64,000 nucleotides of DNA from an uncultured Eubacteriales bacterium (GTDB lineage: Bacteria; Bacillota; Clostridia; Christensenellales; Aristaeellaceae). Below, piece by piece: positions 40,233 to 59,162 of the stretch (the first letter of the stretch is position 1; every line of letters begins with the position of its first letter). Both the position numbers and the translations under genes were made by a program. Location: positions 613,579 to 677,578 of the forward strand of contig OMZY01000001.1 of NCBI GenBank assembly GCA_900315675.1, in the 5' to 3' direction. A model generated the notes under the pieces. It was not told the DNA's origin. It saw only the letters and a list, made by a program, of their open reading frames with translations, and searched no databases.

Positions 40233-40269
40233 CCCGTTATCTCCATAAGTGGTATAAAGTAACTTTCAC

Positions 40270-40417
40270 ATCTGCCGAAGGCAGATATTTCACATTCGGC
40301 GTAGCCGAATAATTCATATTGGCCGCAGGCCAATAATTCATAGCTGAAAACAGGTTTACTGTTTTCAGCTAATTCATTGAGCAGGCATTCGCATTATTTT
40401 ATGCGAATTGCTTGCTC
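40270..40417 (-). repeat. Penta-hairpin element A
   Basis: Plus-strand hairpins: ATCTGCC-GAA-GGCAGAT (40270-40286), ATTCGGC-GTA-GCCGAAT (40294-40310), ATTGGCC-GCA-GGCCAAT (40318-40334), AGCTGAAAACAG/CTGTTTTCAGCT (40342-40370) and a bulged hairpin at 40379-40417. The last encloses the stop codon of the gene ending at 40394. Linkers are AATTCATA, AATTCATA, AATTCATT, and a divergent ATTTCAC. Minus-sense outer end reads GTGAAAGTT. Confidence 0.8.
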
Positions 40418-41470
40418 CTCTGCCTTCAGGCTCAGTTCCGCCGCCTTGAACGCATGCGCCTGTGTCATGGCGTTTTCCGTCCTGTTCAGGCAGTCCAGAA
40501 TCAGCTGTCCAAAGAAAGGATATCCGGTCACGCCGACGGCATTCAGATACTTTTCTCCGCTGTCATTCACCACAAATACATGACCGCCGCCGTTCTGGTC
40601 CGAAGCCAGGTTTACGTACTTGCGGATTTCGATAAATCCTTTCGTTCCCTGGATGAACATCCGTCCGTCGCCCCAGGTCCGCAGGCCGTCCGGTGTGAAC
40701 CAGTCCAGCTTGAAATATCCGGCGGATCCGTTCTGACCGGTAAGCTGTGCGTCTCCGAAATCTTCCAGTTCAGGGTATTCCGGATGGCTGAAGTTGGCGA
40801 TCCGGCTTGCGGTCACCGCAGCTTCTTCTTCTCCCGTGTAATACAGGAATTGTTCAAACTGATGGCTGCCGATATCGCAGAGGATACCACCGTATTTTTT
40901 CCTTTCAAAGAACCAGGCTGGTCTTCCGGGTGCGCCCAGTCTGTGCGGACCGAATCCTGTCACGGAAACCACCTTGCCGATGTCTCCGCTCTGTGCAATG
41001 TATCCTGCCAGGATCGATCCTTCATCATGCAGCCGTTCCGCGTAATAGACCATGTACTTCTTGCCGGTTGCTTTTACGGCTTTCTTTGCGGAATCCAGCT
41101 GTTCCAGGGTTGTAAAAGGAGCCTTATCCGTAAAGTAATCTTTTCCGGCACTCATGGCCCGCAGGCCGAGAGCACAGCGTTCACTGGTCACTGCCGCACC
41201 GGCGATCATATGGGTTTCAGCGTCTTCCAGGGCCTCTTCCTCGCTCCTGGCTGCCTTGGCCTGCGGAAAAGCCTTCAGGAAAGCGGCAACCTTCTTCTCG
41301 TCTGGATCATAAACATACTTCAGTGTACCGCCGGCTTCAGTCAGTCCGTTGCACATACCGTAGATATGACCGTGATCCAGCCGTACCGCGGAAAACACAA
41401 ATTCTCCCGGTTTTACTACAGGCTGCGGTTTCCCTTTCGGCGCATAGTTCATACCGTCAGATACGTTCAT
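40394..41470 (-). CDS. Gfo/Idh/MocA-family oxidoreductase (second of three)
   Basis: 358 residues. The N-terminal strand lacks the usual GxGxxG and reads AVRLDHGHIYGM, a form seen in a subgroup of this family. AGKDYFTDKAPFTTLEQL is the counterpart of the EKP motif, with DKAP in place of EKP. The catalytic-domain region includes GGILCDIGSHQFEQFLYYTG. ATG overlaps the upstream stop by four bases. Sugar substrate unknown. Confidence 0.87.
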   Translation of the reverse strand: MNVSDGMNYAPKGKPQPVVKPGEFVFSAVRLDHGHIYGMCNGLTEAGGTLKYVYDPDEKKVAAFLKAFPQAKAARSEEEALEDAETHMIAGAAVTSERCALGLRAMSAGKDYFTDKAPFTTLEQLDSAKKAVKATGKKYMVYYAERLHDEGSILAGYIAQSGDIGKVVSVTGFGPHRLGAPGRPAWFFERKKYGGILCDIGSHQFEQFLYYTGEEEAAVTASRIANFSHPEYPELEDFGDAQLTGQNGSAGYFKLDWFTPDGLRTWGDGRMFIQGTKGFIEIRKYVNLASDQNGGGHVFVVNDSGEKYLNAVGVTGYPFFGQLILDCLNRTENAMTQAHAFKAAELSLKAEEQAIRIK

Positions 41471-42630
41471 TTGTTTTCCCCTTTCCGGAAGTTGCCGAAG
41501 GACAGTTCTCCGTCCAGGCTGTCTACCGACGCGGTTTTCTCATAAAAATGCGGTACTGATGCCCGGATTCCCTCAACCGTATAAAACGGATCATTCTTGG
41601 CAATGGGCAGCGTCACCGGGGTTCTCAGGGAACCTGCTTTATAGATCGCGCAGATCAGTTCAATCGTGCGCCTGCCGTCTTCTCCCGTAATGGACGGTTC
41701 CCGGTCATTTTCAATGGCGCTGAGTACGTCATCCAGCTGTCCGTCATGCATTTCATACGGCAGCGGCGGCAGCTTGGCCAGGTACTCGTCCGCAGCCTGT
41801 TCAAACGCCTTGTCCGGATCAGGCAGCGGGAATCCGTTCGGCTGGGGCTGGGAGCAGTACACGCTGTACGGGAAAGCTATTTTCGCTTTCTCGCACTGGA
41901 AAATCAGTGCCTGTTCCTCCCCGTGTGATACAACGGAAGCGGTCAGTGTAGCCAGCGCTCCGGGATATTCCATCACAGAAACGGAAAGATCCTCCACCTC
42001 GGCGTTATCATGCCCGGTGTTGGCCAGCACGCTGGTCACCCGTTCCGGTGTACCCATCATCCAGCCCAGCATATCAATGTGATGGACTGCATGATTCAGT
42101 GTGCATCCGCCGCCTTCCGTCTCCCATGTTCCGCGCCACCACAGGTCATAGTAGCTGTGTCCCCGGAACCACAGGCTGTCCACGGTCACATGCCGTACTT
42201 TTCCGGCCATGCCGCTGTCAATCAGCGCCTTCAGGTTCCTCACCGGCAGGCGGAATCTGTTCTGCGCAATAATGGACAGTTTCTTCCCGCTTTCATCCCT
42301 AGCTTTCAGCACTGCGTCGCATTCTTCCAGCGAAGCGGCCATGGGCTTTTCACAGACTACGTTCTTGCCGCTCTTCAGTGCGTTAATGGATATTTCAGCA
42401 TGTACAAAAGGCGGAGTGCATACGTCAACAAGGTCAATATCCTTGTCCAGGATTTCATGGTGATCCAGATAAACGTCAGCGTCCAGGCCATACTGTTCCT
42501 TGACACGCTGTGCCTTTCCGGGGATAATATCCACAAGGGCAGCAATCCTGCACCGGTCCGGGAATTTCAGGTATGCCTTGATGTGCGCATGTGAGATTCC
42601 GCCTGTACCGATAATCGCAACATTAATCAT
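41467..42630 (-). CDS. Gfo/Idh/MocA-family oxidoreductase (first of three)
   Basis: 387 residues from ATG 42630 (GAGG eight bases upstream; an ATG two codons earlier is too close). IGTGGISHAH nucleotide loop, CEKPMAAS, and GGGCTLNHAVHHIDMLGWM. Head of a three-oxidoreductase operon divergent from the AraC regulator gene, which probably controls it together with the importer further right. Confidence 0.88.
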   Translation of the reverse strand: MINVAIIGTGGISHAHIKAYLKFPDRCRIAALVDIIPGKAQRVKEQYGLDADVYLDHHEILDKDIDLVDVCTPPFVHAEISINALKSGKNVVCEKPMAASLEECDAVLKARDESGKKLSIIAQNRFRLPVRNLKALIDSGMAGKVRHVTVDSLWFRGHSYYDLWWRGTWETEGGGCTLNHAVHHIDMLGWMMGTPERVTSVLANTGHDNAEVEDLSVSVMEYPGALATLTASVVSHGEEQALIFQCEKAKIAFPYSVYCSQPQPNGFPLPDPDKAFEQAADEYLAKLPPLPYEMHDGQLDDVLSAIENDREPSITGEDGRRTIELICAIYKAGSLRTPVTLPIAKNDPFYTVEGIRASVPHFYEKTASVDSLDGELSFGNFRKGENK

Positions 42631-42764
42631 TTTCATTACCTCATCAGTGATAACAGAAATTGTTATGGTTTATCAGCAGTATATTCCGTTATCGTTCCGC
42701 CTGCTATACGATTCCTGTTCTCTTGTATGTGAATCCGGCAAAAATTACAGGGAGGTGTAAATCA

Positions 42765-43652
42765 TTGGAATCCTATGATCTCAGCACACCCTTTATGCCT
42801 ATGGAGCAAGGAGGACAGGGATACGAAGCGCGTTACCGTTTTAACGAACATATGAAGGTAACCCAGTATCACTGTCATGATTACTACGAGCTTTATATCC
42901 ACCTTCACGGCGGTGAATATATGGGCGTGGATAACAAGCTGTATACGCTCAAACCTAATCAGGTCTTTATCCTGCCGCCCTTCTGTATGCATGGTCTTTC
43001 CTGCACACGGGATCTGCACAATTATGAGCGTGCTTTCCTCAATCTTTCTTCGGAGGTCATGCGCAACCTCAGCTGCGGTCAGCTGGACCTGAATCAGTTT
43101 CTCCAGGCCCACGCTGCCGGAGGTCACTATACCTACCAGCTGTCAGACACGGATGCCGAACGTTTTGTCCATTGCATCCGCCAGATTGAAACGGCTCAGT
43201 CCCGGAATATTGATGCTGTGGACCGTTATCAGGATTATGCCCATATGATTACGCTGGTCAATCTTCTCTGTCAGGTCATTCGCCGGACGATTCCTGTCCG
43301 TGCTGAATCGGTTTCCGGAAATGTCATCCAGGAAGTTCTGACCTATATCAACAATCACTACACTCAGCCTTTAAGCATCAACGACCTGGCAAAACACTTC
43401 AATATCAGCGCCTCCTGGCTTGCGCACGAGTTTGTGCGTTTCACAAACCGCAGTGTTTATAACTATATTCTGTATCGCCGTGTCATGCTTTCCCGCCGGT
43501 TGATGCTTGGTGAAGACAGCCTTAACACAATCGCCTACCAGTGCGGTTTCAGCGACTACTCAGGTTTTCTTCGTACTTTTACTAAGATCGCGGGTGTTTC
43601 ACCCAGTCAGTATCGTAAGAACTTAAGTCAGTATCAGCAGCACGAGCTGTGA
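42765..43652 (+). CDS. AraC-family transcriptional regulator
   Basis: 295 residues from TTG 42765 behind GGGAGGTG. N-terminal cupin sugar-sensing domain (HCHDYYELYIHLHGGEYM, about 38-56). The C-terminal double helix-turn-helix has SINDLAKHFNISASWLAHEF and the signature GFSDYSGFLRTFTKIAGVSPSQYR. Lies between three divergent oxidoreductase genes and a convergent importer operon, so it likely activates both in response to their sugar. Confidence 0.92.
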   Translation: MESYDLSTPFMPMEQGGQGYEARYRFNEHMKVTQYHCHDYYELYIHLHGGEYMGVDNKLYTLKPNQVFILPPFCMHGLSCTRDLHNYERAFLNLSSEVMRNLSCGQLDLNQFLQAHAAGGHYTYQLSDTDAERFVHCIRQIETAQSRNIDAVDRYQDYAHMITLVNLLCQVIRRTIPVRAESVSGNVIQEVLTYINNHYTQPLSINDLAKHFNISASWLAHEFVRFTNRSVYNYILYRRVMLSRRLMLGEDSLNTIAYQCGFSDYSGFLRTFTKIAGVSPSQYRKNLSQYQQHEL

Positions 43653-43669
43653 TCCTGCTTTTGAAAACA

Positions 43670-43700
43670 GAGGGATGCCGATGAGATATCGGCATCCCTC
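43670..43700. terminator. Hairpin between convergent AraC and binding-protein genes
   Basis: GAGGGATGCCGAT/ATCGGCATCCCTC, 13 pairs with a five-base loop. T content downstream is modest on both strands, so it may serve as a bidirectional terminator of moderate strength. Confidence 0.6.
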
Positions 43701-43734
43701 CTTCATTTGATCATTCAGTCAGTGTCCGTTCAAA

Positions 43735-45372
43735 TCACTTTTCAAAGGTGATGCCGTAGACTTCCTGAAGCTTCTCGATGCGCTCATCGATGATGTCCTG
43801 GCCGCCCATGTTCATGTAGTCTTCCATGATGGTGTCATACACGGAGTCGAACTCTTCGACGGAAGCGGTCACGGCCTTGGTCAGCAGCTCATCGCGCTTT
43901 TCGGTCAGGCTGGAACCGACTTCGGTTTCAGATTCGATCGTGCCGACGTTGTAGTGAGCGGGATAACGGCCGTTGTTCTTACCGAACTCGTTCGCCTGGA
44001 TGACAATCTCAGCGGGGATGCCGGGATAGCTCAGAGCGGTGGTGGCACCGGTGGCTTCGCCCAGGTACAGGCCGTTGCAGGTCATGGTGTAGTCGATGTT
44101 GTTGCCGGAGTTCTTGACCCATTCGCCGGTGGCGGGCAGGATCTCGTAAGCGCCGTCTTCAGTCATGTTGAAGTTGACGCCTTCTTTACCGGTCTGCAGG
44201 TACTTGATGGTCTCGGGGCTGGAGATGAAGTCGATGTACAGCAGGGAGGCCACGGGCTCCTTGTTGGTGGAGGGCAGGAAGATCTTACGATCGGAACCGA
44301 CGGCAGCGCCCATGTACTTCCGGGTGATACCGGCGTCATTCTGGAAGCAGTCGATCGGAACGAACATCGCGTCTGCGCCCACATTGCGCTGCAGGTTCAG
44401 GTTGATGCAGTCTTCGCCGTTACGGAAAGGATAGTCCCAGTTGTGCATGAAAGCGCCAACATAGCCGGCCTTCATGTTGTCATCTTCAACAGTGCTGTCG
44501 GTGTACAGACCGAAGTCTTTCCAGACCAGGCCTTCGTTGTACCACTTGTTCAGCACACGGATGCCTTCTTTGTAGCCGGGAACCAGCAGGTGACGATCAT
44601 CATAGCCGTACACGAACAGGGTCGCGTCGTCGATGTCTTCAGCAACCTTGCTGATGCTCATCAGGTCGTTCCGCCAGCCGATATCGGTGGAGGTGGAGTA
44701 AGGAATCATCTTGTCAGCGTTCTCGCCCAGCAGGGTTTCCGCGTTGTCACGGAAAGCAACCAGGGCATTGTAGAACTCTTCTTCGGTGGTGGGCAGGCCC
44801 AGACCCAGCTTGTCCAGCCAGTCCTTGCGAATGAAGGTGGTGATACGGGAAGTATCAGCGCGGACGCCTTCGATCATCCACACAGCGCCGGTGGCGGGAT
44901 CCTTGTCATAGTACAGGTTGTCTTCGCCGCCGAGCAGGGCAACGATGTTTCCGATGTAGTCCTTGTACTCTTCCAGATAGGGAGCCAGGTCGATAACACC
45001 GGGGTTGCCGTTCTCGTCCACCATGTTGGCGTAGGAGATGATGGTGTTGGCGCCGTAGGTGTAGCTGATATCGGGAGCCTGCTTGTCAGCCATCAGCTGA
45101 GCGATATCATCGGTCTCGGTCCAACGGCCGACAGACACGTATTCAACTTCGACATTGTACTTTTCGAGCATGCCCTTCTTCAGGTACTCGGTCCATACGT
45201 TGTTGGTCGGGTCGGTGCCGCCGTCGTTGTTGCGGTTGTAGATTTCAACGGTGATATGACGGGTTTCGGTGAACTTGCCATCCACAAAACCGTCATCCGC
45301 CGCGAACGCGGTGCTGATACCCATAGCGGCGATCAGCGCCAGAACCAGAACCAGGGACAGGATACGTTTCAT
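43735..45372 (-). CDS. Extracellular solute-binding protein of a sugar ABC importer
   Basis: 545 residues, size of the LplA/YtcQ group of large carbohydrate-binding proteins. Signal peptide 1-24 ends TAFA/AD with no cysteine at the cleavage site, so it does not look like the lipoprotein expected in a monoderm. The ISYTYGANTIISYANM and PYSTSTDIGWRNDL stretches sit in the two lobes. Last gene of its operon (permease, permease, binding protein); a penta-hairpin element precedes it. Codon use is strongly optimised. No ATPase gene is present; a shared MsmX-type ATPase is likely. Confidence 0.9.
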   Translation of the reverse strand: MKRILSLVLVLALIAAMGISTAFAADDGFVDGKFTETRHITVEIYNRNNDGGTDPTNNVWTEYLKKGMLEKYNVEVEYVSVGRWTETDDIAQLMADKQAPDISYTYGANTIISYANMVDENGNPGVIDLAPYLEEYKDYIGNIVALLGGEDNLYYDKDPATGAVWMIEGVRADTSRITTFIRKDWLDKLGLGLPTTEEEFYNALVAFRDNAETLLGENADKMIPYSTSTDIGWRNDLMSISKVAEDIDDATLFVYGYDDRHLLVPGYKEGIRVLNKWYNEGLVWKDFGLYTDSTVEDDNMKAGYVGAFMHNWDYPFRNGEDCINLNLQRNVGADAMFVPIDCFQNDAGITRKYMGAAVGSDRKIFLPSTNKEPVASLLYIDFISSPETIKYLQTGKEGVNFNMTEDGAYEILPATGEWVKNSGNNIDYTMTCNGLYLGEATGATTALSYPGIPAEIVIQANEFGKNNGRYPAHYNVGTIESETEVGSSLTEKRDELLTKAVTASVEEFDSVYDTIMEDYMNMGGQDIIDERIEKLQEVYGITFEK

Positions 45373-45434
45373 AGGTTTCTTCCTCCTTTTTTATTTCAAG
45401 GGCTTCTGCCCTCAGAAATCCGTTATCCACTCAC

Positions 45435-45575
45435 ATTCGCCGAAAGGCGAATAATTCATATTGAACGGTTCGCCGTTCAATAATTCATATCGACCGACAG
45501 GACGATATTTCATATTCCACAGCAACTCTGTTGCTTTGGAATAATTCATTTGGCGTCAGCCCTTAACTGCGCCAA
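45435..45575 (-). repeat. Penta-hairpin element B
   Basis: Plus-strand hairpins: ATTCGCC-GAAA-GGCGAAT (45435-45452), ATTGAACGG-TTCG-CCGTTCAAT (45460-45481), an imperfect ATATCG/CGATAT (about 45488-45508), ATTCC..AGCAAC-TCT-GTTGCT..GGAAT (45514-45542) and TTGGCG..CAG/CTGCGCCAA (45550-45575). The last spans the stop of the permease gene ending at 45556. Linkers AATTCATA, AATTCAT, TTTCAT, AATTCATT. Confidence 0.78.
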
Positions 45576-46491
45576 TCGTAACGCCGGTCACGAAGTATCT
45601 CTGCAGCCACGGATAAACGACCAGGATCGGCACGGTGGCAAACATAACGGTTGCCATCTGGATCGTCTTGGAAACACCGTTGGCAAAGAATCCTTCCTGT
45701 GCGGCCTGTTCGTTGGTCTGGGTGGAATTCTTGATCACGTTGTACAGCAGCAGCTGAATCGGCCAGTAGGGCTCGGATTCGGACTTCTTCAGGTACATCA
45801 GCGCATCAGAGAATCCGTTCCAGCGTCCGACAGCATAGAACAGGCTCAGGGTAGCGATAACCGGCAGACTCAGCGGCAGGTAAATCTTCACAAGCACCCG
45901 GATCGGGCCGGCTCCGTCTATTTCCGCGGCTTCCCGTAAACTGTCCGGTACACCGTAGAAGAACGATCTCATGATGATGACGTTGAATACGCTGATACAG
46001 TTCGGGAAAATCAGTGCATATGGCGTATTCAGCATACCCAGTCTGCTCAGCAGCAGGTATGATGGTATCGTACCGGCGCTGAAATACATCGTGAAGAGGA
46101 TAATGAAGTTGATAAACTTCCCGCCCTTCAGCTCGCTGTAAATCAGCGGATAGGAGCAGCAGATGGTCAGGGAGATGGACAGCAGCGTACACATAACGGT
46201 CAGGATCGCTGTCCAGCCCAGGGACCGTACATACTTCGGCGTGGTCAGCACGGTCCGGTAAGCTTCAATATTCCATCCCTTGGGAATAATAAATACTTCA
46301 TTCTTCACCAGTGCGTCTGCGGAGGATAGACTGCAAGCCAGCACGTGAAGCATCGGCAGCAGGCACAGGATCATCATCACAAAGCAGATGATGGCAATAA
46401 CCATATCTCCTGCCCTGGTGCCCCGGCTCTTGATGATGCCGTCGCGAAGCTTTCGGGAGGAAAAGTCTTTGGTTTCATTCACAACACTCAT
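45556..46491 (-). CDS. Carbohydrate ABC transporter permease (MalG/LplC type)
   Basis: 311 residues from ATG 46491 (GGAGG nine bases upstream); a longer frame to 46572 has no ribosome site. Six predicted membrane helices and the inner-membrane permease EAA-loop (DSLREAAEIDGAGPIRVLVKIYLPLSLP). Partner of the adjacent permease. The C-terminal end GAVKG is encoded within a hairpin. Confidence 0.9.
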   Translation of the reverse strand: MSVVNETKDFSSRKLRDGIIKSRGTRAGDMVIAIICFVMMILCLLPMLHVLACSLSSADALVKNEVFIIPKGWNIEAYRTVLTTPKYVRSLGWTAILTVMCTLLSISLTICCSYPLIYSELKGGKFINFIILFTMYFSAGTIPSYLLLSRLGMLNTPYALIFPNCISVFNVIIMRSFFYGVPDSLREAAEIDGAGPIRVLVKIYLPLSLPVIATLSLFYAVGRWNGFSDALMYLKKSESEPYWPIQLLLYNVIKNSTQTNEQAAQEGFFANGVSKTIQMATVMFATVPILVVYPWLQRYFVTGVTIGAVKG

Positions 46492-46505
46492 CTTTTCTTC
46501 CCTCC

Positions 46506-47465
46506 TTACCAGATTCCGCGCTCGCCGAACTTCTTCGCAAGCGAGTTGGACATCAGCAGGAAGATGACGCATACCACGCTCTGGAAGAGACCAACGGCGG
46601 TCGTCAGAGAATACTGCTGGCCGTTAATACCCTTCTCATATACGTAAATCGATATGGTCTTACTGGCTTCCTTCACCAGCGGGTTACTTAACGTAAATGG
46701 TCTGTCGAATTCAGATCCCAGGATATGGCCCAGGTTCATGATCAGCAGGATGATGATCGTGGAGCGGATACCCGGCAGCGTCACGTGCCAGATCTTTTGG
46801 AGCCGTGTCGCGCCGTCCACTTCAGCCGCTTCATACAGTTCCGGACTGATACCGGTGAGGGCAGCCAGGTAAATGATGGTATTCCATCCGCATTCCTTCC
46901 AGATGCCCAGTACGATGTACGATGCGCGCCAGTGGTTTGCGTCTCCGAAGAATGGGATGCTCGTTCCCAACAGCTTATTGACGATACCGTCGTTCGTTGC
47001 GAACATCCGCAGTGTGATGCTGGAGATGATAACCCAGCTCAGGAAGTGCGGCAGGTAAAGAACGGTCTGTGTGATCCTCTTGTATTTCGGGAAAGCCAGC
47101 TCGTTCAGCAGCAGTGCCATGATAATCGGCATCGGCATACCGATCACCAGGTCAAGCAGGTTCAGGAAGATCGTGTTCTTTAGTGCAATCAGGAAGTCCT
47201 TATCCTTAAATGCTTTCAGGAACCATTGCCATCCGTTGTTCTTGGCCCATTCTACTTTCCACGGCGGAATCAGAATGTTGTTCTTCTTGAACGCCTGGAG
47301 AATGTAGGCCATGGGGGTATAGCGGAAAAGAACGAAAAACAGAACAGGAAGAATCAGGAGCAGGTAAAGCGTCCAGTATCTCTGCAGGTAGGTTTTGAAA
47401 GAGTAACCTTTGTGCAGATTCTTCATAGGGGTTTTCGCCTTTTCCCCGGCAGCAATCTGAGTCAA
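46506..47465 (-). CDS. Carbohydrate ABC transporter permease (LplB type)
   Basis: 319 residues from TTG 47465, seven bases behind GGGAGG. Six helices; EAA motif PELYEAAEVDGATRLQKIWHVTLPG. The N-terminal tail (TQIAAGEKAKTPMKNLHKG) is cytoplasmic. First gene of the importer operon, with a long 5' region holding AGAAAG direct repeats. Confidence 0.9.
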   Translation of the reverse strand: MTQIAAGEKAKTPMKNLHKGYSFKTYLQRYWTLYLLLILPVLFFVLFRYTPMAYILQAFKKNNILIPPWKVEWAKNNGWQWFLKAFKDKDFLIALKNTIFLNLLDLVIGMPMPIIMALLLNELAFPKYKRITQTVLYLPHFLSWVIISSITLRMFATNDGIVNKLLGTSIPFFGDANHWRASYIVLGIWKECGWNTIIYLAALTGISPELYEAAEVDGATRLQKIWHVTLPGIRSTIIILLIMNLGHILGSEFDRPFTLSNPLVKEASKTISIYVYEKGINGQQYSLTTAVGLFQSVVCVIFLLMSNSLAKKFGERGIW

Positions 47466-47547
47466 TGGGCTCCCTCCCTTTCGTTTCCTCGTGTTACAGG
47501 AGAGTTTTCTGTAAAAATATGAATCATATCTAACCATTTAATCCATG

Positions 47548-47618
47548 ATTATAATATATGCAATGATTGCTCACTTTCTATGTGAAAAATGCTTTCTAGT
47601 ATGCAAAAACTGCTTTCT
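47548..47618 (-). promoter_or_regulatory. Candidate activator-dependent promoter of the sugar importer
   Basis: Minus-strand TATAAT at 47548-47553 with no good -35. Three minus-strand copies of AGAAAG(T/C)(G/A) occur at 47572-47579, 47590-47597 and 47611-47618, spaced 18 and 21 bases. The first overlaps the expected -35 position. Direct repeats at helical-turn spacing fit an AraC-family activator. The remainder of the 350-base gap up to the tRNA holds nothing else I can name. Confidence 0.45.
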
Positions 47619-47784
47619 GAAAGTAGATCATTTATACATCCTGTGATGCCTTTCGCATAAAAAATCCCCTGTTTCACATAGTCGAAAGGATAAAAATCCT
47701 GTTATATCCACGTTTTCTGTATACAATCGCTTTCAATCCGACAGCAGTTTTTGTCCCTTTTCTCATCTGTTTCGGAAACATAAG

Positions 47785-47812
47785 AAAAGCCTCCATCTGA
47801 CGATGGAGGTTT
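47785..47812 (-). terminator. Terminator of the tRNA-Trp gene
   Basis: Minus-strand CCTCCATC-GTCA-GATGGAGG followed by CTTTTCTT, a few bases beyond the tRNA. Confidence 0.8.
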
Positions 47813-47817
47813 TCTGC

Positions 47818-47888
47818 AGGGGCAGAAGGATTCGAACCCTCAACAAAGGTTTTGGAGACCCACGTGTTACCATTACACCATGCCCCTA
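47818..47888 (-). tRNA. tRNA-Trp (anticodon CCA)
   Basis: 71 bases without encoded CCA. Acceptor AGGGGCA pairs with TGCCCCT, discriminator G. The D arm is GTGT-AATGGTA-ACAC, the anticodon loop CTCCAAA gives CCA, and the T arm is GAGGG-TTCGAAT-CCTTC. The first pair of the anticodon stem is a T-T mismatch, which is tolerable. Flanked by its own promoter and terminator. Confidence 0.92.
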
Positions 47889-47908
47889 TTGCATTCGCAA
47901 CAGTGGCA

Positions 47909-47938
47909 TTATATGAAAAAACACACCACTTTGTCAAG
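47909..47938 (-). promoter_or_regulatory. tRNA-Trp promoter
   Basis: Consensus TTGACA (47933-47938) and TATAAT (47909-47914) on the minus strand with an 18-base spacer, 20 bases before the tRNA 5' end. Confidence 0.8.
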
Positions 47939-48028
47939 GTATTTTTTATTCTTCTTCTGTCTCTTTCTTCTTGCCTCTTTCCCTTCTCTTTTATATACTT
48001 TTTATATACTGTCTCAGGGGGTGATAAC

Positions 48029-48373
48029 ATGCAGGAAAACAAACTCATAGAAATGTCCATGAATTTCTCTGTTTCCGTCCTGAAACTAACCGAAACAATC
48101 AAAGGTCATTATTCTCTCGTCAATCAACTTGAAAAATCTGCCACTTCTATCGGAGCAAATATTCATGAGTCATGTTACGCTCAAAGCAAATCAGATTTTA
48201 TTTCCAAACTGCAGATTGCTCTGAAAGAATGTCATGAAACAAAGTATTGGCTCGATTTATTTACCAGAGCATCAGTATGCGAATTTGATACTCTTCAGAA
48301 ATTACGCAATGAATGTGATACCATTCGGCGTATTCTTGTATCATCAATCAACACAGCTAAAAGCAATCAGTAA
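48029..48373 (+). CDS. Four-helix-bundle protein of the S23/IVP family
   Basis: 114 residues from ATG 48029 (GGGGGTGAT upstream). Matches the family encoded in 23S rRNA intervening sequences and also found alone: KLTETIKGHYSLVNQLEKSATSIGANIHES and LQIALKECHETKYWLDLF. The family is related to the Avd accessory protein of diversity-generating retroelements, but no reverse transcriptase or template repeat is visible here. AT-rich compared with neighbours and adjacent to a tRNA, which may mark acquisition. Confidence 0.85.
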   Translation: MQENKLIEMSMNFSVSVLKLTETIKGHYSLVNQLEKSATSIGANIHESCYAQSKSDFISKLQIALKECHETKYWLDLFTRASVCEFDTLQKLRNECDTIRRILVSSINTAKSNQ

Positions 48374-48380
48374 ATATCAT

Positions 48381-48544
48381 ATACGGCTTTAGCCGTATAA
48401 TTCATATCCCGCATTAAGCGGGATAATTCATATTGAAGGGAAATACGTCGTATTTCCCTTCAATAATTCATATAGCGGAAGCACATAAATGTGCTTCCGC
48501 TATAATTCATTTACGATAAGTGGTTATTTACCACTTATCGTAAT
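48381..48544 (-). repeat. Penta-hairpin element C
   Basis: Plus-strand hairpins: TATACGGC-TTTA-GCCGTATA, ATCCCGC/GCGGGAT, a near-perfect 30-base palindrome TTGAAGGG..CCCTTCAA, TATAGCGGAAGCACA-TAAA with its complement, and TTACGATAAGTGGT/ACCACTTATCGTAA. The last contains the final codons and stop of tldE. Linkers ATTCATA, AATTCATA, AATTCATA, ATTCATT. Lies between convergent genes. Boundaries are good to about one base. Confidence 0.8.
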
Positions 48545-49825
48545 CCCATCGAAGGCAATAAACGGTAGTGCGTTGCTTCCGTCCTTCGCAACATCCTTAC
48601 TGATCTCCCTTATATTCACCAGCATTTCCGGTACGCATCCGCTGATCATAGTTTCCGAAACCGCGTTGCTGATCTTCCCGTTTTCAATGAGGAAGCTGTT
48701 CTTTGCCACTCCGGAGAATTCTCCGCTTGCTGCCGGCTGTCCGCCGGAGAATCTCATGACCAGCAGGCCTTTATCGATACTCCCGATGATCTCGTCCAAT
48801 GTTTTGTCACCGACGGCAACATGCAAGTTTCTTCCGCTGTTTCCGGCACGTTTCTTGCCTGTCTTATTGGCGGCATATTGGCTCAGGCAGAAGCTGTTCA
48901 GCTTTCCTTCTTTGATCAGGTCAAAGTTTTCAGTCTCGTATCCTTCAGCTGTATGTCTTTCCCTGACAACAACGTCATCATTGTACGGCTCAAAGCTCAT
49001 GCTGAACCGCGGGTCTGCCACCTGTTCGCCCATCTTGTCTTTCCATATGCTGGTGCCGTCAATCATGCATGCATCTCCGGTAAAGTTGCCCATAATCGTG
49101 CTCAGTACGATCTCATAAAGGGCCATGGGCGCCAGGATCACGGGTCCACTGAATTTGCCTTCCAGGGTGATCGGATCCAGCTGCTTTTCAATCTGGCTGA
49201 TTTCCCATTCAATGGTGCCGCATTCAAGCACCGGCTTGTCCAGCGTCTTCAGGGTAATATCGCTGCCGTAGAAGGAGGTGTTCTTCTCCCCTTCGTGTGC
49301 GGAATACATCAGTGAAAAGGTGTATGCACCGGACTTCGATACGTACTGTACGTCATTTGTGTTCAGATACACTTCAGTGTAGCCGGTGTGATCTGTGATC
49401 ATCTGCTCCATCAGGATCGTCGGATGCTTTTCCTTGATGCTTTCAAGCAGTTCCTTGGTCCGCATGAACAGCTTATCTGTATCGCATTCCGCTGCGCCGT
49501 CAGTAAAATCCTTCTCAACAGGCTCTTTCGCGAATTTCCAGGCTTCGTCGGGCTGACCGCTTTCCGCGGCTGCAATGGCGTCGGAAACAGCGTTCATCAC
49601 TGTTTCATTGTCAAACTTATTGATCGTTACGGTGCCTTTCCGCATGCCCTTCAGCAGGGTAATGGTAACATTGTGGTTAAACAGCGTTCTCATCAGGGAA
49701 AATCTTCCGCCGTCCACATTGAATTCTTTCTTTTCGCTTTCGCTGACTGTGCACTGGGCATATTCCGCACCCTTGGCTTTTGCTTCAGCCAGGATCTCCC
49801 TGGCTAGTTCTTTCATTCTATCCAT
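48524..49825 (-). CDS. tldE: TldE/PmbA-type peptidase subunit
   Basis: 433 residues. Partner of TldD in the TldD/TldE heterodimer that cleaves unfolded peptides and matures some modified peptides. TldE lacks the metal motif; family stretches include SGRNLHVAVGDKTLDEIIGSIDKGLLV and SGGQPAASGEFSGVAKNSFLIENG. Starts two bases after the tldD stop on the same strand. Its last codons form one arm of a hairpin. Confidence 0.9.
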   Translation of the reverse strand: MDRMKELAREILAEAKAKGAEYAQCTVSESEKKEFNVDGGRFSLMRTLFNHNVTITLLKGMRKGTVTINKFDNETVMNAVSDAIAAAESGQPDEAWKFAKEPVEKDFTDGAAECDTDKLFMRTKELLESIKEKHPTILMEQMITDHTGYTEVYLNTNDVQYVSKSGAYTFSLMYSAHEGEKNTSFYGSDITLKTLDKPVLECGTIEWEISQIEKQLDPITLEGKFSGPVILAPMALYEIVLSTIMGNFTGDACMIDGTSIWKDKMGEQVADPRFSMSFEPYNDDVVVRERHTAEGYETENFDLIKEGKLNSFCLSQYAANKTGKKRAGNSGRNLHVAVGDKTLDEIIGSIDKGLLVMRFSGGQPAASGEFSGVAKNSFLIENGKISNAVSETMISGCVPEMLVNIREISKDVAKDGSNALPFIAFDGITISGK

Positions 49826-49826
49826 C

Positions 49827-51212
49827 TTATCGGCCTCCGATCTTTACCTTGCAGCGCAGCGCCGGTCCGCCCATGCCCACAGGCATCGGCTGTTTCTTTC
49901 CGCACATACCGGAACTCACCCACACGACTTTGTCGCTGACCATATCAACGGTCTTCAGCATCTCGAACGCCACACCGGAAATCGTGGTGTCCAGCAGGGC
50001 TTTACCGATTTTGCCCTTTTTGATTTCATAACCCATCGTCACGCCGAACATGAATTCGCCCGTCGTGTCTGCCTGTCCGTTATTGGACTGGATCAGGTAA
50101 TATCCGTCGTCAATGGAGGCAATCATGTCCTCCAGCTTGTCTTTTCCGGGGTGAATGGATGTATTGCGCATCCGGATCAGCGGTTCATCCTGGAACAGCC
50201 ATGCACGGGCGTTGCCCTGGGGAGTCATGCCGAAATGCTGTGCACTCTCCCTGTTGTTCATGTACCCTGTCAGAATACCGTTTACGATCAGCGGGGAATC
50301 TGTCGCTTCAGTGCCTTCATCGTCAATGTACACCGGCAGCGGACAGGTTTCTCCGAAAGCGGTATGCGCAAAGTCTGTCAGGGTAACCAGATCGCTGGCA
50401 ACCCGCTTATTCAGATTGGGACCGGCTACGCTTCCGCCCAGCACCAAGTCCGCTTCCACGGTATGGCCGACAGCCTCATGGCTCAGCATACCGCTCATCA
50501 TCCCGTCAAGGATAACAGTCTTTTCACCGGCGTCCGCGTATACGCCTTCCCGCTTCTGCATCAGCTTTTCATACAGGTCGTCAATCTCCGCGTGCAGTTT
50601 TGCCGGATCGGCAAAGTTATCGCTGAAAACGCCGCTGCCGCCGTAAGCCTGATACAGTTCCACAGGTGCCCCTGCGTCTGTCTGTGCAGTCAGCACAACA
50701 TATGTATAGGATCTGGGCGCAAGAATATGTCCGCTTGCCCCGTCAGAAGTCACAATCAGTTTCTCCATGGAATCTTCCATGGCTACTACTGTACGGCTCA
50801 TGAGGTTCGGATACTTCTTCGCAATGTATGCGTCTACCTCACGGGCATAATCCACATACAGCTTCTGTTCCGCGTCTTTGATATCTTCCTGCGTCGGCAT
50901 CTGTTTCAGTGCCATTTTCGGCAGGGCAGGCTTCCCTGCTCCCGCATGTTTGTTCATAAAGGCAGCGTTTTCTGTCGCGGCCTTCAGTACGGTTTCCGCA
51001 GCCTCTCCGGTATATTCGGCCATGGAAGAAAAACCGTATACGCCGCCCTCGTATACGCGTGCGGAAACCCCGGAGACGTCCGAACGCACATTTCCCATCA
51101 GGGCACCGTTCAGAAGCACGGCACGGCGGGTTCTGTTTTTCTGTCCCCGCAGTTCTGTATGGACGCCGTCTGCGAACAGGGTTTTTTTATCTGTCAGTAT
51201 ATCCTGCAGCAT
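49827..51212 (-). CDS. tldD: TldD-type zinc metallopeptidase
   Basis: 461 residues. The metal motif HEAVGHTVEADL fits HExxxH of TldD, with later cysteine-containing metal-site region (VSSGMCGKKQPMPVGMGGPALRC). Operon tldD-tldE is the usual pair. No precursor peptide gene for a modified peptide is seen nearby, so a general role is more likely. ATG 51212 after AAAGGAAAA. Confidence 0.92.
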   Translation of the reverse strand: MLQDILTDKKTLFADGVHTELRGQKNRTRRAVLLNGALMGNVRSDVSGVSARVYEGGVYGFSSMAEYTGEAAETVLKAATENAAFMNKHAGAGKPALPKMALKQMPTQEDIKDAEQKLYVDYAREVDAYIAKKYPNLMSRTVVAMEDSMEKLIVTSDGASGHILAPRSYTYVVLTAQTDAGAPVELYQAYGGSGVFSDNFADPAKLHAEIDDLYEKLMQKREGVYADAGEKTVILDGMMSGMLSHEAVGHTVEADLVLGGSVAGPNLNKRVASDLVTLTDFAHTAFGETCPLPVYIDDEGTEATDSPLIVNGILTGYMNNRESAQHFGMTPQGNARAWLFQDEPLIRMRNTSIHPGKDKLEDMIASIDDGYYLIQSNNGQADTTGEFMFGVTMGYEIKKGKIGKALLDTTISGVAFEMLKTVDMVSDKVVWVSSGMCGKKQPMPVGMGGPALRCKVKIGGR

Positions 51213-51225
51213 GTGTTTTTTCCTT

Positions 51226-52146
51226 TCATTCGTTAATTTCGTTCAGATCGTACGGTGTGGTCTGGTAGACCATGTAGTTCAGCCAGTTGGCGTACAGCAG
51301 GTTCGCGTGGCTGCGCCAGGTCACCAGCGGTTCCTGCGTATCGTCATCGTTGGGATAGTAATTCTTCGGCACTTCAATCGGCAGACCTGCGTTTTTATCC
51401 CGCAGGTATTCCTTTTCCAGGGTTCTCGGATCATACTCGCTGTGTCCCATGATGAACACCTGCCGTCCGTTTTCCGTAATCGCCGCATATACGCCGGCTT
51501 CTTCGGAAGAGGCCAGAATCTTCAGTTTTCCGCAGGCTTCCAGATCTTCCCGCCGCACGGTGGTGTGCCGGCTGTGGGGCGCCATAAACACATCGTCAAA
51601 TCCGCGCAGAAGGATATAATTCTTCCTTTCTGCCTTATGCGGGAATACACCGAACAGTTTCTTATCCAGCGGCACCTTCGGAATACCGAAGTGATAATAC
51701 AGCGCTGCCTGCGCGCCCCAGCAGATGTGGAAAGTGCTGTGTACATGCTTCTTGCTCCATTCCATAATGGTGCAAAGCTCGTCCCAGTACTCTACTTCTT
51801 CAAAGGGCATCTGTTCCACCGGCGCGCCGGTAATGATCATTCCGTCAAAATTCTGGTCCTTGATTTCATCAAACGTCTTATAGAAAGCGGTCAGGTGTTC
51901 AGCTGATGTATTCCTGGACACATGGCTTGCCATCTTCACGAGCTCTGTCTCCACCTGCAGTGACGTATTGCCCAGCAGGCGCAGCAGCTGCGTTTCCGTA
52001 TCAATCTTTGTGGGCATCAGATTCACAATGGCGATTCTCAGCGGACGGATATCCTGGGTTGTAGCCCGGTTCTCCGTCATCACAAAGATATTCTCATCTG
52101 TCAGCGTTCTGTAAGCCGGCAGCTCATTCGAAATCTTGATCGGCAT
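51226..52146 (-). CDS. metA: Homoserine O-acetyltransferase (MetA family)
   Basis: First committed step of methionine synthesis, 306 residues from ATG 52146 (an in-frame extension to 52266 runs into a repeat element). Catalytic cysteine in [10 protein letters not shown], catalytic His and Glu in MGHSEYD. The acyl-CoA selectivity site reads [12 protein letters not shown]; glutamate at this position marks acetyl-CoA users (Bacillus type) whereas E. coli MetA has glycine and uses succinyl-CoA. Confidence 0.93.
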
Positions 52147-52180
52147 AGTGCATCTTCCTTCCTGGCGTTTACTGTGCAAT

Positions 52181-52209
52181 ATTGTATGCCCTAACCCGGT
52201 ATTTATCAA
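52181..52209 (-). promoter_or_regulatory. metA promoter
   Basis: Minus-strand TTGATA (52204-52209), 17-base spacer and TACAAT (52181-52186), 35 bases before the ATG. No S-box or T-box leader fits in the short space. Confidence 0.6.
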
Positions 52210-52250
52210 GTTTTCTTCCTTGAACATCATCTGAACATTCCGTGAATACA

Positions 52251-54039
<1,789 letters not shown>

Positions 54040-54055
54040 TCAAACAAACTTTCAC

Positions 54056-54611
<556 letters not shown>

Positions 54612-54713
54612 TTACTCTCATATGCTCCCGTTTTCTTCATATTTCTTCGTTTCTTCTGCTGGAATCCTTGTGTTACAATCCTTCTGACCATTTTCGACAG
54701 GGAGTTTTTAAAC

Positions 54714-55754
54714 ATGGAAAAGCTGACGTCCGCCTTGCTGGCCTGGTATGACCGCTGTGCCCGGGATCTTCCCTGGCGCGGCTTCCATGACGCCTACCGT
54801 ACCTGGGTCAGTGAAGCCATGCTGCAGCAGACCCGTGTGGAAACGGTCCTTTCCTATTATGATCGTTTTCTTACCCGTTTTCCTTCCCTTTCCTCCCTGG
54901 CCGAAGCGCCGGAAGAGGATGTGCTCAAAGCATGGGAAGGACTGGGGTATTATTCCCGTGCCCGTAATCTGTGGAAGGGCGCCCGCCAGGTGATGGACGA
55001 ATATAACGGTACCCTGCCGCGGGATCCTGAAAAGCTGAAAAAGATTCAGGGAATCGGCCCCTATACTGCCGGAGCCATCGCTTCTATCGCCTATGATGTA
55101 CCCATCCCGGCTGTGGACGGCAATGTGATTCGTGTACTGTCCCGGATTTACGGCATCCGCACAGATGCGCTGGAACCTGCCACCCGCAAACGGATCGAAT
55201 CCCTGGCCGCCGCCCTCGTTCCTTCCGAACGGCCCGGGGATCATAATCAGGCGGTCATGGATCTGGGCGCTACTGTCTGCGTGCCCGGCACACCGGACTG
55301 TGCCCGCTGCCCGCTTTCTTTCTTCTGTGATGCTTTCAAAGCCGGGGACGCGGCGGATCTTCCTGTCCTGCCCAAGGCAAAGGCGCAGAAAGTGATTCCT
55401 TATAATCTCCTGATCATCCGCTCCGGAGACCGTGTGCTCATGCGTCAGCGTACAGAACGCCTGCTGCAGGGGCTCTGGGTATTCCCTATGTTTGAAGGTG
55501 AATCCGGTCCTCAAGAGCTCCTGCCTTTTGCCGGCAAAAAACTGCGTCTCTCGCTCAGTCCCATGCGGGATGCCGGGTCCGCCCGTCATGTGTTCACTCA
55601 CCAGATTTGGCTGATGCATATATATGAAACAGACGCGGAAGCTTCCGCTTCCGCGCCTGCGGGATATGAATTTATTCCAGTTTCAAAGCTGAAAGATCTT
55701 ACCCTTCCGGCAGCCATGAACGCCGCCGTGAATCTGCTTATGCCTGAAGCATAA
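54714..55754 (+). CDS. mutY: A/G-specific adenine glycosylase MutY
   Basis: Removes adenine opposite 8-oxoguanine; 346 residues from ATG 54714. SEAMLQQTRVETV carries the catalytic glutamate, IQGIGPYTAGAIAS the helix-hairpin-helix and AVDGNVIRV the catalytic aspartate. The 4Fe-4S cysteines are C-x6-C-x2-C-x5-C in CVPGTPDCARCPLSFFC. A C-terminal NUDIX-like MutT domain recognises oxoG. Its 3' end overlaps the convergent aminopeptidase gene by 17 bases. Confidence 0.95.
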   Translation: MEKLTSALLAWYDRCARDLPWRGFHDAYRTWVSEAMLQQTRVETVLSYYDRFLTRFPSLSSLAEAPEEDVLKAWEGLGYYSRARNLWKGARQVMDEYNGTLPRDPEKLKKIQGIGPYTAGAIASIAYDVPIPAVDGNVIRVLSRIYGIRTDALEPATRKRIESLAAALVPSERPGDHNQAVMDLGATVCVPGTPDCARCPLSFFCDAFKAGDAADLPVLPKAKAQKVIPYNLLIIRSGDRVLMRQRTERLLQGLWVFPMFEGESGPQELLPFAGKKLRLSLSPMRDAGSARHVFTHQIWLMHIYETDAEASASAPAGYEFIPVSKLKDLTLPAAMNAAVNLLMPEA

Positions 55755-57120
55755 ACGCGGTATATCCCTTAACGGCTTCATACAGATCAGCCTTGGAGAT
55801 AATCTCCATAGGGGCGTGCATGTTCAGCACAGCCAGGCCGCTGTCGATGACTTCCATGCCGTACAGGGCACAGATATAGGCGATGGTTCCGCCGCCGCCC
55901 TGGTCAACCTTGCCCAGTTCAGCCGTCTGCCAGCAGACCTTGTTTTCGTCCAGGATCCTGCGCAGCTTGGCCATATACTCGGCATTCGCGTCGTTGCTGC
56001 CGCCTTTTCCGCCGCTTCCGGTATACTTGTTGAAGCATACGCCTCTGCCCAGCTGGGCGGAGTTTTTCTTTTCAAATGCGGAGGCGTACAGGGGATCGAA
56101 GCCCGCGCTTACGTCGCAGCTCAGCATCCGGCTGTTCTGCAGCGTCCTGCGCACATTCAGTTCGCTGTAGCTGCCGGTCAGCTCCAGCAGTTCAGCCACA
56201 TAATTTTCCAGGTAGTTGGCCCGCATGCCGGTAGCACCCACGCTGCCGATCTCTTCTTTATCCACCAGCATTCCGCAGCAGGTGTAATCCGGAACTGCCG
56301 GCAGGCTCAGTACCGCTTTCAGTTCAGCAAAAGCGCAGCACCGGTCGTCATGGCCGTAACCCATGATCATGCTGCGGTCCAGACCGAAGTCTCTTGCTTT
56401 GCCGGCGGGAACGGCTTCGATCTCGGCTGAGATAAAGTCTTCTTCTTCAATGCCGTACTCATCCTTCAGGATCTTCAGGATCTGAGCCTTGACCGGTTCC
56501 TTTTCCTCACCCTTCAGCGGTTTCCCGCCCAGCATGATGTCCAGGTTCTCACCGGTAATGGCTTCCCGCAGCTTCTTGTCCAGCTGGTCATGGGACAGGT
56601 GGATCAGCAGGTCGCTGATGCCGACTACCGGATCATCGTCCTTTTCGCCGATGCAGATATTGACCACGGTGCCGTCTTTCTTCACTACCACGCCATGCAG
56701 CGCCAGTTCCCTGGCGGTCCACTGGTATTTCTTCACGCCGCCGTAGTAGTGGGTATCGGCCAGTACATAATCATTGTCTTCGTACAGGGGATTCTGCTTC
56801 AGGTCCAGCCGCGGGCTGTCAATGTGGGCGCCCACGATGTTCATGCCTTCGCTCAGCGGTTTTTTGCCGATGTGGAAGGTCAGGATCGCCTTGCCCATCC
56901 GGTTCACATATACCTTGTCCCCGGCTTTCAGCTTTTTCTTCCCGCCGATCATGGTTTCCAGGTTCACGTACCCGGCTTTTTCCAGCGCGTCCACAGCATA
57001 TACGGCGCATTCCCGCTCTGTTTTTCCGGCGTCAATAAAAGCCTTGTATTCCTTTGCGATCTCCTCAAGCTTTTTGAGATCGGTCTTCGTGTAGTTTTTC
57101 CATGCGTTGGGTCTTTCCAT
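55738..57120 (-). CDS. M18-family aminopeptidase
   Basis: 460 residues from ATG 57120 (AAGGAG ten bases upstream; the GTG three codons earlier is too close). Metal ligands lie in NIVGAHIDSPRLDLK, VDKEEIGSVGATGM and near the C-terminal VLNMHAPMEII. Cytosolic zinc aminopeptidase forming large oligomers; prefers acidic or neutral N-terminal residues in homologues. Confidence 0.93.
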   Translation of the reverse strand: MERPNAWKNYTKTDLKKLEEIAKEYKAFIDAGKTERECAVYAVDALEKAGYVNLETMIGGKKKLKAGDKVYVNRMGKAILTFHIGKKPLSEGMNIVGAHIDSPRLDLKQNPLYEDNDYVLADTHYYGGVKKYQWTARELALHGVVVKKDGTVVNICIGEKDDDPVVGISDLLIHLSHDQLDKKLREAITGENLDIMLGGKPLKGEEKEPVKAQILKILKDEYGIEEEDFISAEIEAVPAGKARDFGLDRSMIMGYGHDDRCCAFAELKAVLSLPAVPDYTCCGMLVDKEEIGSVGATGMRANYLENYVAELLELTGSYSELNVRRTLQNSRMLSCDVSAGFDPLYASAFEKKNSAQLGRGVCFNKYTGSGGKGGSNDANAEYMAKLRRILDENKVCWQTAELGKVDQGGGGTIAYICALYGMEVIDSGLAVLNMHAPMEIISKADLYEAVKGYTAFMLQA

Positions 57121-57271
57121 GGTTTTCACACTCCTTACGGTTTATCTTACCACTGCCGCCGGATAAATACAATTTGTATACAATTCCCCGTCAATATGGA
57201 GCATTATTTCTTCACCAATCTTTCACATAGCATTCTCTTATCCTTGAACTTCCTTCTATATTATATGCAAT

Positions 57272-57409
57272 GGATGGCTCTGCCATCCCGGTGACTTTCA
57301 TATTCTGCGCATCAGAATAATTCATATTTGACGAAGTCAAATAATTCATATTGGCGTCAGCCAATAATTCACATCGCGAAGCGATAATTCATTGAAACCG
57401 GAGGTTTCA
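57272..57409 (-). repeat. Penta-hairpin element F upstream of the dnaK-like gene
   Basis: Plus-strand hairpins: ATTCTG/CAGAAT (57302-57318), ATTTGAC-GAA-GTCAAAT (57326-57342), ATTGGC/GCCAAT (57350-57365), ATCGC-GAA-GCGAT (57373-57385) and TGAAACC-GGA-GGTTTCA (57393-57409). A preceding GGATGGC-TCT-GCCATCC (57272-57288) lies outside the regular linkers. Linkers AATTCATA, AATTCATA, AATTCACA, AATTCAT. The last hairpin contains the ribosome site of the plus-strand gene. The rest of the divergent gap shows no clear promoter. Confidence 0.8.
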
Positions 57410-57410
57410 T

Positions 57411-59162
<1,752 letters not shown>

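Follow-up and report, generated by a model that had tools for sequence, protein, structure and literature searches.

Multi-hairpin DNA arrays with a conserved foot form a dispersed, fork-oriented repeat family in an uncultured Eubacteriales bacterium and its relatives

The described systems that come closest to the arrays reported here are REP sequences and elements of the IS200/IS605 type, and the background on them given in this paragraph follows portions of the papers cited. Some REPs are short perfect palindromes with loops of 3-4 bases that stand behind a conserved foot (PMC8266576, PMC3733652), and the rule in print is one REP family per tnpAREP (PMC6006769). IS200/IS605 elements have their hairpin recognised in one of the two strands, and a guide sequence lies 5' of that hairpin (PMC8266576, PMC6006769). 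The transposases of IS608 and ISDra2, which are related to RAYT, contact a T in the hairpin loop (PMC8266576), and both elements target the lagging-strand template (PMC6006769). Template switching, in turn, is able to create as well as to maintain perfect hairpins (PMC8794818).

Six arrays of hairpins lie in the window, i.e. the whole stretch of 64,000 nucleotides that was analysed, and no account of such arrays was met among the literature matches listed from open-licence papers. From our point of view, and with a probability of about one half, they represent a non-coding, dispersed, multi-unit REP-like repeat that spreads via the single-stranded lagging-strand template and the stems of which are kept perfect by template switching. 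What is new here is that free stems, fork polarity and a chain layout come together with a first hairpin that appears to be derived from the host.

Layout of the six elements and extent of the family

The six loci had been predicted to be intergenic chains of five hairpins with a constant linker, and all of them could be read as such chains on the minus strand. The hairpins are joined by ATGAATTA(T) or the close variants GTGAATTA, ATGAAATA and GTGAAATA (minus strand). Exact ATGAATTA occurs 20 times in the 64-kb window (outer coordinates 40310..57392), always on the minus strand and always inside the six elements, compared to 2.11 +/- 1.46 occurrences in the shuffled window (0/100 shuffles reach 20).

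Element 1 (40256..40417, minus strand), which was read by eye and also detected by the array search, uses three ATGAATTA and one GTGAAATA as linkers and ends in the tail TGTGAAAGTTACTTT at 40256-40270; its first hairpin takes in the end of an oxidoreductase-like ORF (40394-41470), with the stop codon in the loop. Element 2 (45435..45575, minus strand) stands at the end of an ABC-permease-like ORF (45556-46572). The claim of five paired hairpins per locus applies to all six elements, with the reservation that hairpins 1 and 3 of element 2 are imperfect. In element 3 (48369..48544, minus strand), the first of the five hairpins spans the stop codon of a TldD/PmbA-like ORF (48524-49825), and the chain is followed by ATGATATTTACT at 48369-48380. 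The five hairpins of element 4 (52251..52409, minus strand) come after groEL (52399-54033), the end of which is the fold-back partner in the first hairpin; the second one seems to resemble the groEL terminator of relatives. Element 5 (54048..54190, minus strand) is located between groEL and a 108-aa ORF upstream of it, presumably groES, and has the stop codon of this ORF in its first hairpin and the tail GTGAAAGT at 54048-54055. Element 6 (57294..57409, minus strand) occupies the divergent region between an aminopeptidase gene (55738-57129, minus strand) and dnaK (57411-59162, plus strand); its first hairpin lies over the presumed dnaK ribosome-binding region, so that the element is antisense to dnaK, and its tail is ATGAAAGT at 57294-57301. 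A tail of the form RTGANAGTTACT, with variants, is recurrent 3' of the last hairpin. Besides groEL, dnaK and the aminopeptidase, the neighbouring genes thus include TldD/PmbA-, ABC permease- and oxidoreductase-like ones, assigned on profile scores below the curated cut-offs.

The term intergenic describes these loci only in part. In five of the six copies the stop codon of the upstream gene lies inside the first hairpin, either in an arm or in the loop, and at the same five loci (40270, 45435, 48381, 52251 and 54056) the 5' arm of this hairpin is within the coding end of that gene; the sixth is the one over the presumed dnaK ribosome-binding region. When folded as ssDNA, the six elements gave z-scores of -5.6 to -12.6 (element 1, -10.9; element 2, -8.8), and 0/200 shuffles folded equally well, two elements having been trimmed to 150 bases at the loss of part of the first hairpin. 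The antisense strand, with its GNA loops, folds slightly better in all six elements, a small difference that is not relied on as a driver. A coding peptide repeat was rejected, since not every unit length is a multiple of three.

The six loci are members of a dispersed, high-copy DNA repeat family. A genome-wide scan had been named as the result on which the original prediction could fall, and in the bacterium's own genome (G000) it returned 210 matches to TATGAATTAT versus 3 for the reversed pattern, and 94 versus 0 for two linkers with a short gap between them, a pattern that demands no hairpin; the prediction has thus withstood this check. The same linker-gap-linker pattern occurs 163 times in G002, 91 in G022, 86 in G035, 78 in G001 and 27 in G005, and its reverse not once in any of these genomes. 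It is abundant in six of the 45 genus members searched; the other 39 have none, except for G004 (3), G008 (1) and G033 (1), and among a further 205 genomes of the family and order (250 genomes overall) 15 have a match, with a maximum of 10. In the DNA examined, 192 of 205 linker-flanked stretches are hairpins and 13 are not. A scan of public genomes with three linkers yielded at least 113 stretches among the matches listed, 21 of which have two Watson-Crick hairpins of at least 4 bp between the linkers. Nineteen of these 21 carry titles of Clostridia, Oscillospiraceae, Eubacterium or Ruminiclostridium, and one is a Bacteroidales; the other listed stretches comprise some look-alikes below the hairpin bar and many tandem heptamers or chance matches. 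Most linkers at the 15 distant loci that were viewed read GTGAAATA, and the arrays often occur there as converging pairs.

Stem sequence and orientation relative to the replication fork

The foot 5' of each palindrome has the consensus RTGAAWTA, and the linker type is mostly uniform within an array, with 48 ATGAATTA-ATGAATTA and 40 GTGAAATA-GTGAAATA neighbours among 124 units of G002. On the sense strand, 98 of 147 triloops read TNC (46/75 in G002, 52/72 in G000) and 5 read GNA (3 and 2, respectively), and 182 of 224 units close their stem with C-G. The stems had been described as unrelated, which holds for their otherwise variable sequence but not for the C-G closing pair on a T-first loop in most of them, nor for those stems that recur between loci.

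Within 192 array units (stem of at least 4 pairs), 1359 stem pairs include 5 G-T and 7 A-C, as against 282 G-T and 45 A-C among the 5064 pairs of a control set, 459 terminator-like hairpins from outside the arrays that were defined by a stem of at least 6, 4 G-C pairs and a T run, with G-T allowed in both sets, and that include chance hairpins. The near-pure Watson-Crick stems, compared to these G-T-richer hairpins, indicate that the arrays were shaped at the DNA level. In an alignment of 45 equal-length units, gathered by the foot pattern RTGAAWTA, the five variable stem pairs contain 73 cells changed on both sides, 1 changed on one side and 4 unpaired (of 225), and as many as four different pair types occur at a single stem position. 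For the structure as a whole, the covariation score amounts to 0.537 compared to 0.178 in shuffles (0/500 reach the observed value), and two of the five covariation measures, namely pairs changed on both sides (35/500) and further pair types (167/500), are not clearly above shuffles. The 15 invariant columns of this alignment are fixed by the search pattern itself and were disregarded as evidence. Next to the foot, the only pairs seen are T-A and T-G, depending on the linker subtype.

The same was seen between species. Across orthologous hairpins of five species, 28 double and 3 single changes were counted in 241 pairs (30 hairpins kept, 13 dropped for less than 60% identity, pairs of unequal length skipped), which agrees with the view that structure rather than sequence is kept. 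At close distance there are 2 double changes in 94 stem pairs and 7 changes in 42 loop bases, and such a lower rate in stems than in loops is not what pure drift with correction would predict.

For orientation, origin and terminus were placed independently of the arrays, by GC skew in G022 and by skew and the 16S strand in G002. In the latter genome, the skew switches sign at two points that are separated by half a chromosome, near 0.88 and 2.58 Mb, and three of three 16S genes are on the minus strand between the two changes, giving an origin at 2.58 and a terminus at 0.88 Mb; dnaA, at 1.307 Mb, contradicts both skew and rRNA and was rejected as an origin marker. The expected skew sign was found in 41/43 sampled stretches of G002, excluding three that adjoin the terminus, and in 21/22 of G022. 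In fork direction run 66 of the 71 arrays of G002 versus 334 of 596 sampled ORFs, and 45 of the 50 arrays of G022 versus 177 of 304 ORFs, in stretches picked partly for arrays, which affects density and not polarity. Of the ten arrays (out of 121) that run against the fork, five are each part of a close inverted pair. In the densest region of G002 (1.0-1.1 Mb), where 32 of 62 ORFs are leading, each of the 29 arrays detected is on the minus strand, and where the sign of the local skew alone was used, 51 of 52 arrays agree with it (window and stretches of G000, G035, G022 and G001). The control motif TATAAT is unbiased (198 to 214 in G002, 84 to 92 in G022). As the arrays point in fork direction, their sense strand is the lagging-strand template.

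Origin and spread of the arrays

Arrays are present at some orthologous sites and absent or replaced at others. The 40270 array is found in G000 and G002, and other repeats occupy this site in G035, G022 and G001; the 48381 site has orthologous arrays in G000 and G002, with stem changes matched hairpin by hairpin. G035 and G001 have an array in common at the end of one gene, and the same gene end in G022, with flanks that are ~96-98% identical, carries four different hairpins and also a different first hairpin. In G035, one array is present as three tandem copies, which comprise two, four and two units. The orthologous-site comparisons did not reveal any clean empty site for which the boundaries were exact.

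In five genomes, a long hairpin abuts the first linker in 31 of 72 arrays compared to 3 of 360 random positions, the latter not being confined to intergenic DNA. Stop-codon hairpins in general were rejected as the cause of the first hairpin, since they occur at only 3-17% of ORFs in array-rich samples and at 3% in the distant sample and hence are no general feature of genes. The long hairpins that lie at the groEL stop codon, or extend across it, differ among G000, G001, G002 and G035. The fold-back arm of G000 pairs as a TGA stop and the gene now ends in TAA, which would fit an arm that was copied from an older gene end.

Fork polarity, Watson-Crick purity and stem changes on both arms, almost without G-T intermediates, argue for a DNA-level, replication-linked element over an RNA one. 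In the REP-like reading that we prefer, the unit consists of the foot RTGAAWTA and a perfect palindrome, the loop of which is small and usually begins with T, and several units stand head to tail. Copies would spread and be exchanged while the sense strand is single-stranded as lagging-strand template, with a putative ssDNA-handling enzyme that would read foot, loop and hairpin shape but not the stem sequence. Template switching at the fork may in addition make the first hairpin from host sequence and keep the stems perfect, such that stems would drift and the foot would be kept. A mobile single-strand-DNA repeat was among the meanings initially considered, and fork polarity, the patchy occurrence among congeners and the conserved foot speak in its favour, but no enzyme was found. 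If it is true that an enzyme reads these chains, they would represent a structure-reading, sequence-tolerant ssDNA mobility system. One could go further and speculate, as a tentative possibility, that the arrays are replication-coupled mobile DNA known by foot and hairpin shape alone, in several Clostridia, with units that are captured, exchanged and renewed on the lagging-strand template, a first hairpin made from the host sequence at the insertion point, and nearly free stems.

A purely mutational origin, in which template switching at forks makes and keeps hairpin chains in a prone lineage with neither movement nor a reading enzyme, appears rather unlikely to us. It would account for the perfect stems, the matched changes with hardly any G-T intermediates and the long hairpins that differ at the groEL stop codon between the four species, and it is slightly favoured by the density of perfect hairpins of at least 10 bp, which in array-rich genomes ranges from 2.7 per 10 kb (window) to 7.3 (G001), with 2.8 in distant congeners (groEL loci only). 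What it leaves unexplained is the foot that is kept across loci and species, the recurrent tail, the tendency of an array to keep to one of the two linker subtypes, and the same plan in other Clostridia. The original suggestion of repeated template switching is in keeping with the perfect, doubly changed stems and with the fold-back hairpins at gene ends, but does not on its own account for conserved linkers and tail. Perfect stems and double changes in DNA that follows the fork make the arrays a test bed for template switching as a palindrome maker.

Less likely still is a REP-type element moved by a Y1 (RAYT) transposase that these genomes already have. Genes for RAYT-like Y1 enzymes are indeed present (G000 3, G002 4, G001 4, G022 3, G035 2); the PF01797 search of G000, a genome that is 95.66% complete, gave three matches with open frames of 275-341 codons, all RAYT-like, and beyond these no partner TnpA element of the IS200/IS605 type. 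The perfect REP palindromes behind a foot and the loop T contacted by the IS608 and ISDra2 transposases, as described in the portion of PMC8266576 referred to above, would also suit such an enzyme. All 16 RAYT loci of the five genomes, read by eye, are accompanied by other palindromes and lack an array in the ~420 bases to either side, for which reason the arrays were rejected as a RAYT-cognate repeat. Further points against it are the foot, which differs from GT[AG]G, the printed rule of one REP family per tnpAREP (PMC6006769, in the portion cited), and the RAYT-type genes of congeners without arrays (G009, G012, G017, G018 and G020). A core of the RAYT-linked palindromes, GGGGACGG, is fork-biased as well (33 to 5 in the G002 sample and 17 to 8 in that of G022), which could be counted for this explanation, though it is a G-rich word and such a bias is expected for words of this kind. 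Spread driven by a reverse transcriptase was rejected, as PF00078 (RVT_1) had 0 matches in the five array-rich genomes G000, G002, G022, G035 and G001.

We consider it improbable that the arrays act as RNA, i.e. as multi-hairpin mRNA segments by which transcripts would be stabilised, processed or insulated, the linker being the site of a protein or nuclease. Five of the six window copies begin at a gene stop codon in sense, the T-A or T-G pair next to the foot is compatible with RNA wobble, and a crude ORF caller placed the start of 72 arrays from five genomes at a gene end in sense in 33 cases, antisense in 14 and neither in 25. Fork polarity, with 56-58% of ORFs leading, may explain only part of this sense excess. 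However, array orientation tracks the fork far better than genes do; in the G002 cluster, 23 arrays have at least 3 linkers, and the gene 5' of them was called in the same sense in 11 cases and in the opposite one in 12 (crude ORF caller, at least one miscall); G-U is nearly absent from the stems, unlike in terminator-like hairpins; and Rfam at the gathering score detects tRNA and no other family in the window. The RNA element bound by a dedicated protein that the original prediction had listed is therefore disfavoured by an orientation that follows replication and by stems without G-U. Compensatory change is usually taken as proof of RNA function and is here abundant in fork-following DNA, so that the arrays serve as a warning for covariation-based RNA discovery.

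Least probable of all is a chromosome-polarity site under selection to mark the direction from origin to terminus, with a role in e.g. segregation, priming or termination. The strong fork polarity in two complete genomes (G002, G022) and the dense array regions of G002 at 0.33-0.58 and 1.0-1.09 Mb, either side of the skew-derived terminus, could be quoted for it, but against it stand the absence or near-absence of arrays in 39 of 45 genus members, their very uneven spacing and their presence or absence at orthologous sites.

Comparison with known systems

In integron attC sites, structure is kept while sequence is varied, and the enzyme reads the folded single strand. The arrays are alike in keeping structure while sequence varies, but have no gene cassettes between units. 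Group IIC introns insert behind hairpins such as terminators; the arrays differ in that the five array-rich genomes searched have no reverse transcriptase. They differ from CRISPR in that the stretches between the linkers are hairpins (192/205) and not non-palindromic spacers, and the initial statement that the layout matches neither REP nor CRISPR stands as far as tested.

With quasipalindrome correction and template-switch hairpins, as far as the cited portion of PMC8794818 describes them, the arrays share perfect stems, double changes and new fold-back stems that arise in one step; yet this is known as a mutation process, whereas the arrays form a family that is dispersed and has both its linker and its tail conserved. 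The likeness to IS200/IS605 lies in an orientation set by the lagging-strand template (66/71 and 45/50 arrays), and the difference from these elements and their non-autonomous derivatives in the lack of an internal gene and in the many hairpins per element.

To REP, BIME and REPIN sequences, as described in the portions of the literature used here, the arrays are similar in their short palindromes, conserved unpaired foot, high copy number and intergenic location, often downstream of genes. The high-copy intergenic palindromes expected of a REP/RAYT system are found (163 in G002, 94 in G000, 0 in the controls). Unlike in that system, the foot reads RTGAAWTA instead of GT[AG]G, the stems vary freely within a genome instead of being shared, several units stand head to tail with a strong fork polarity, and no RAYT gene was seen flanked by an array (16 loci). 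A REP label therefore does not hold, in view of the foot, the lack of stem sharing and the missing link to RAYT, and the account that fits best is a REP-like or other lagging-strand ssDNA element, the stems of which are kept by template switching.

Arrays shared between genomes and interrupted by another repeat

The only array matches of G004, a congener of the array-rich genus members, lie on contig C57 (17794-17873) and consist of the same three hairpins as an array of the array-rich genome G001 (contig C6, 37067-37146). This match suggests that the segment has been transferred between genomes. In G022, the loop of one array hairpin (locus L233, around 2374-2500) holds another repeat of about 90 bases.

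Other repeats and their polarity

Some sites without arrays (L231-L236) are occupied by a different repeat, in which ACTTAAAACTTAAAA is followed by ATGGCGGAAGAAAAATCC and then by a terminator-like hairpin. In the sampled stretches of G002 and G022 taken together, ACTTAAAACTTAAA occurred 17 times in the leading sense and twice in the opposite one.

On contigs C8-C10 of G000, the source genome of the window, loci L010, L011, L012 and L018 carry inverted pairs of tandem AATTCATAATTCA heptamers, which are spaced by about 100 bases, enclose other sequence and have a TGAAT core in common with the array linker. As the leading-sense counts for TGAATTATGAATT were 9 vs 18 in sampled G002 and 21 vs 14 in sampled G022, its polarity is not clear.

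The RAYT genes (L245-L260) have their own palindromes on either side, and the core of many of these resembles GGGGACGG. The leading-sense excess of GGGGACGG (33 vs 5 in sampled G002, 17 vs 8 in sampled G022) is in part what GC skew predicts.

Genomic landmarks and arrays of other Clostridia

In both complete genomes, G002 and G022, dnaA (C1 1306829 and C1 3135772, respectively) lies far from the skew-derived origin. The 1725-codon window ORF at 32892-38069 had no match in an NCBIfam search at E 0.001.

Among 20 scanned loci with GTGAAATA arrays from other Clostridia, a tRNA was present in 14, an uncontrolled count; the tRNA gene is often at most a few hundred bases away, with arrays near one at L118, L134, L137, L144, L165, L168, L177 and L182.
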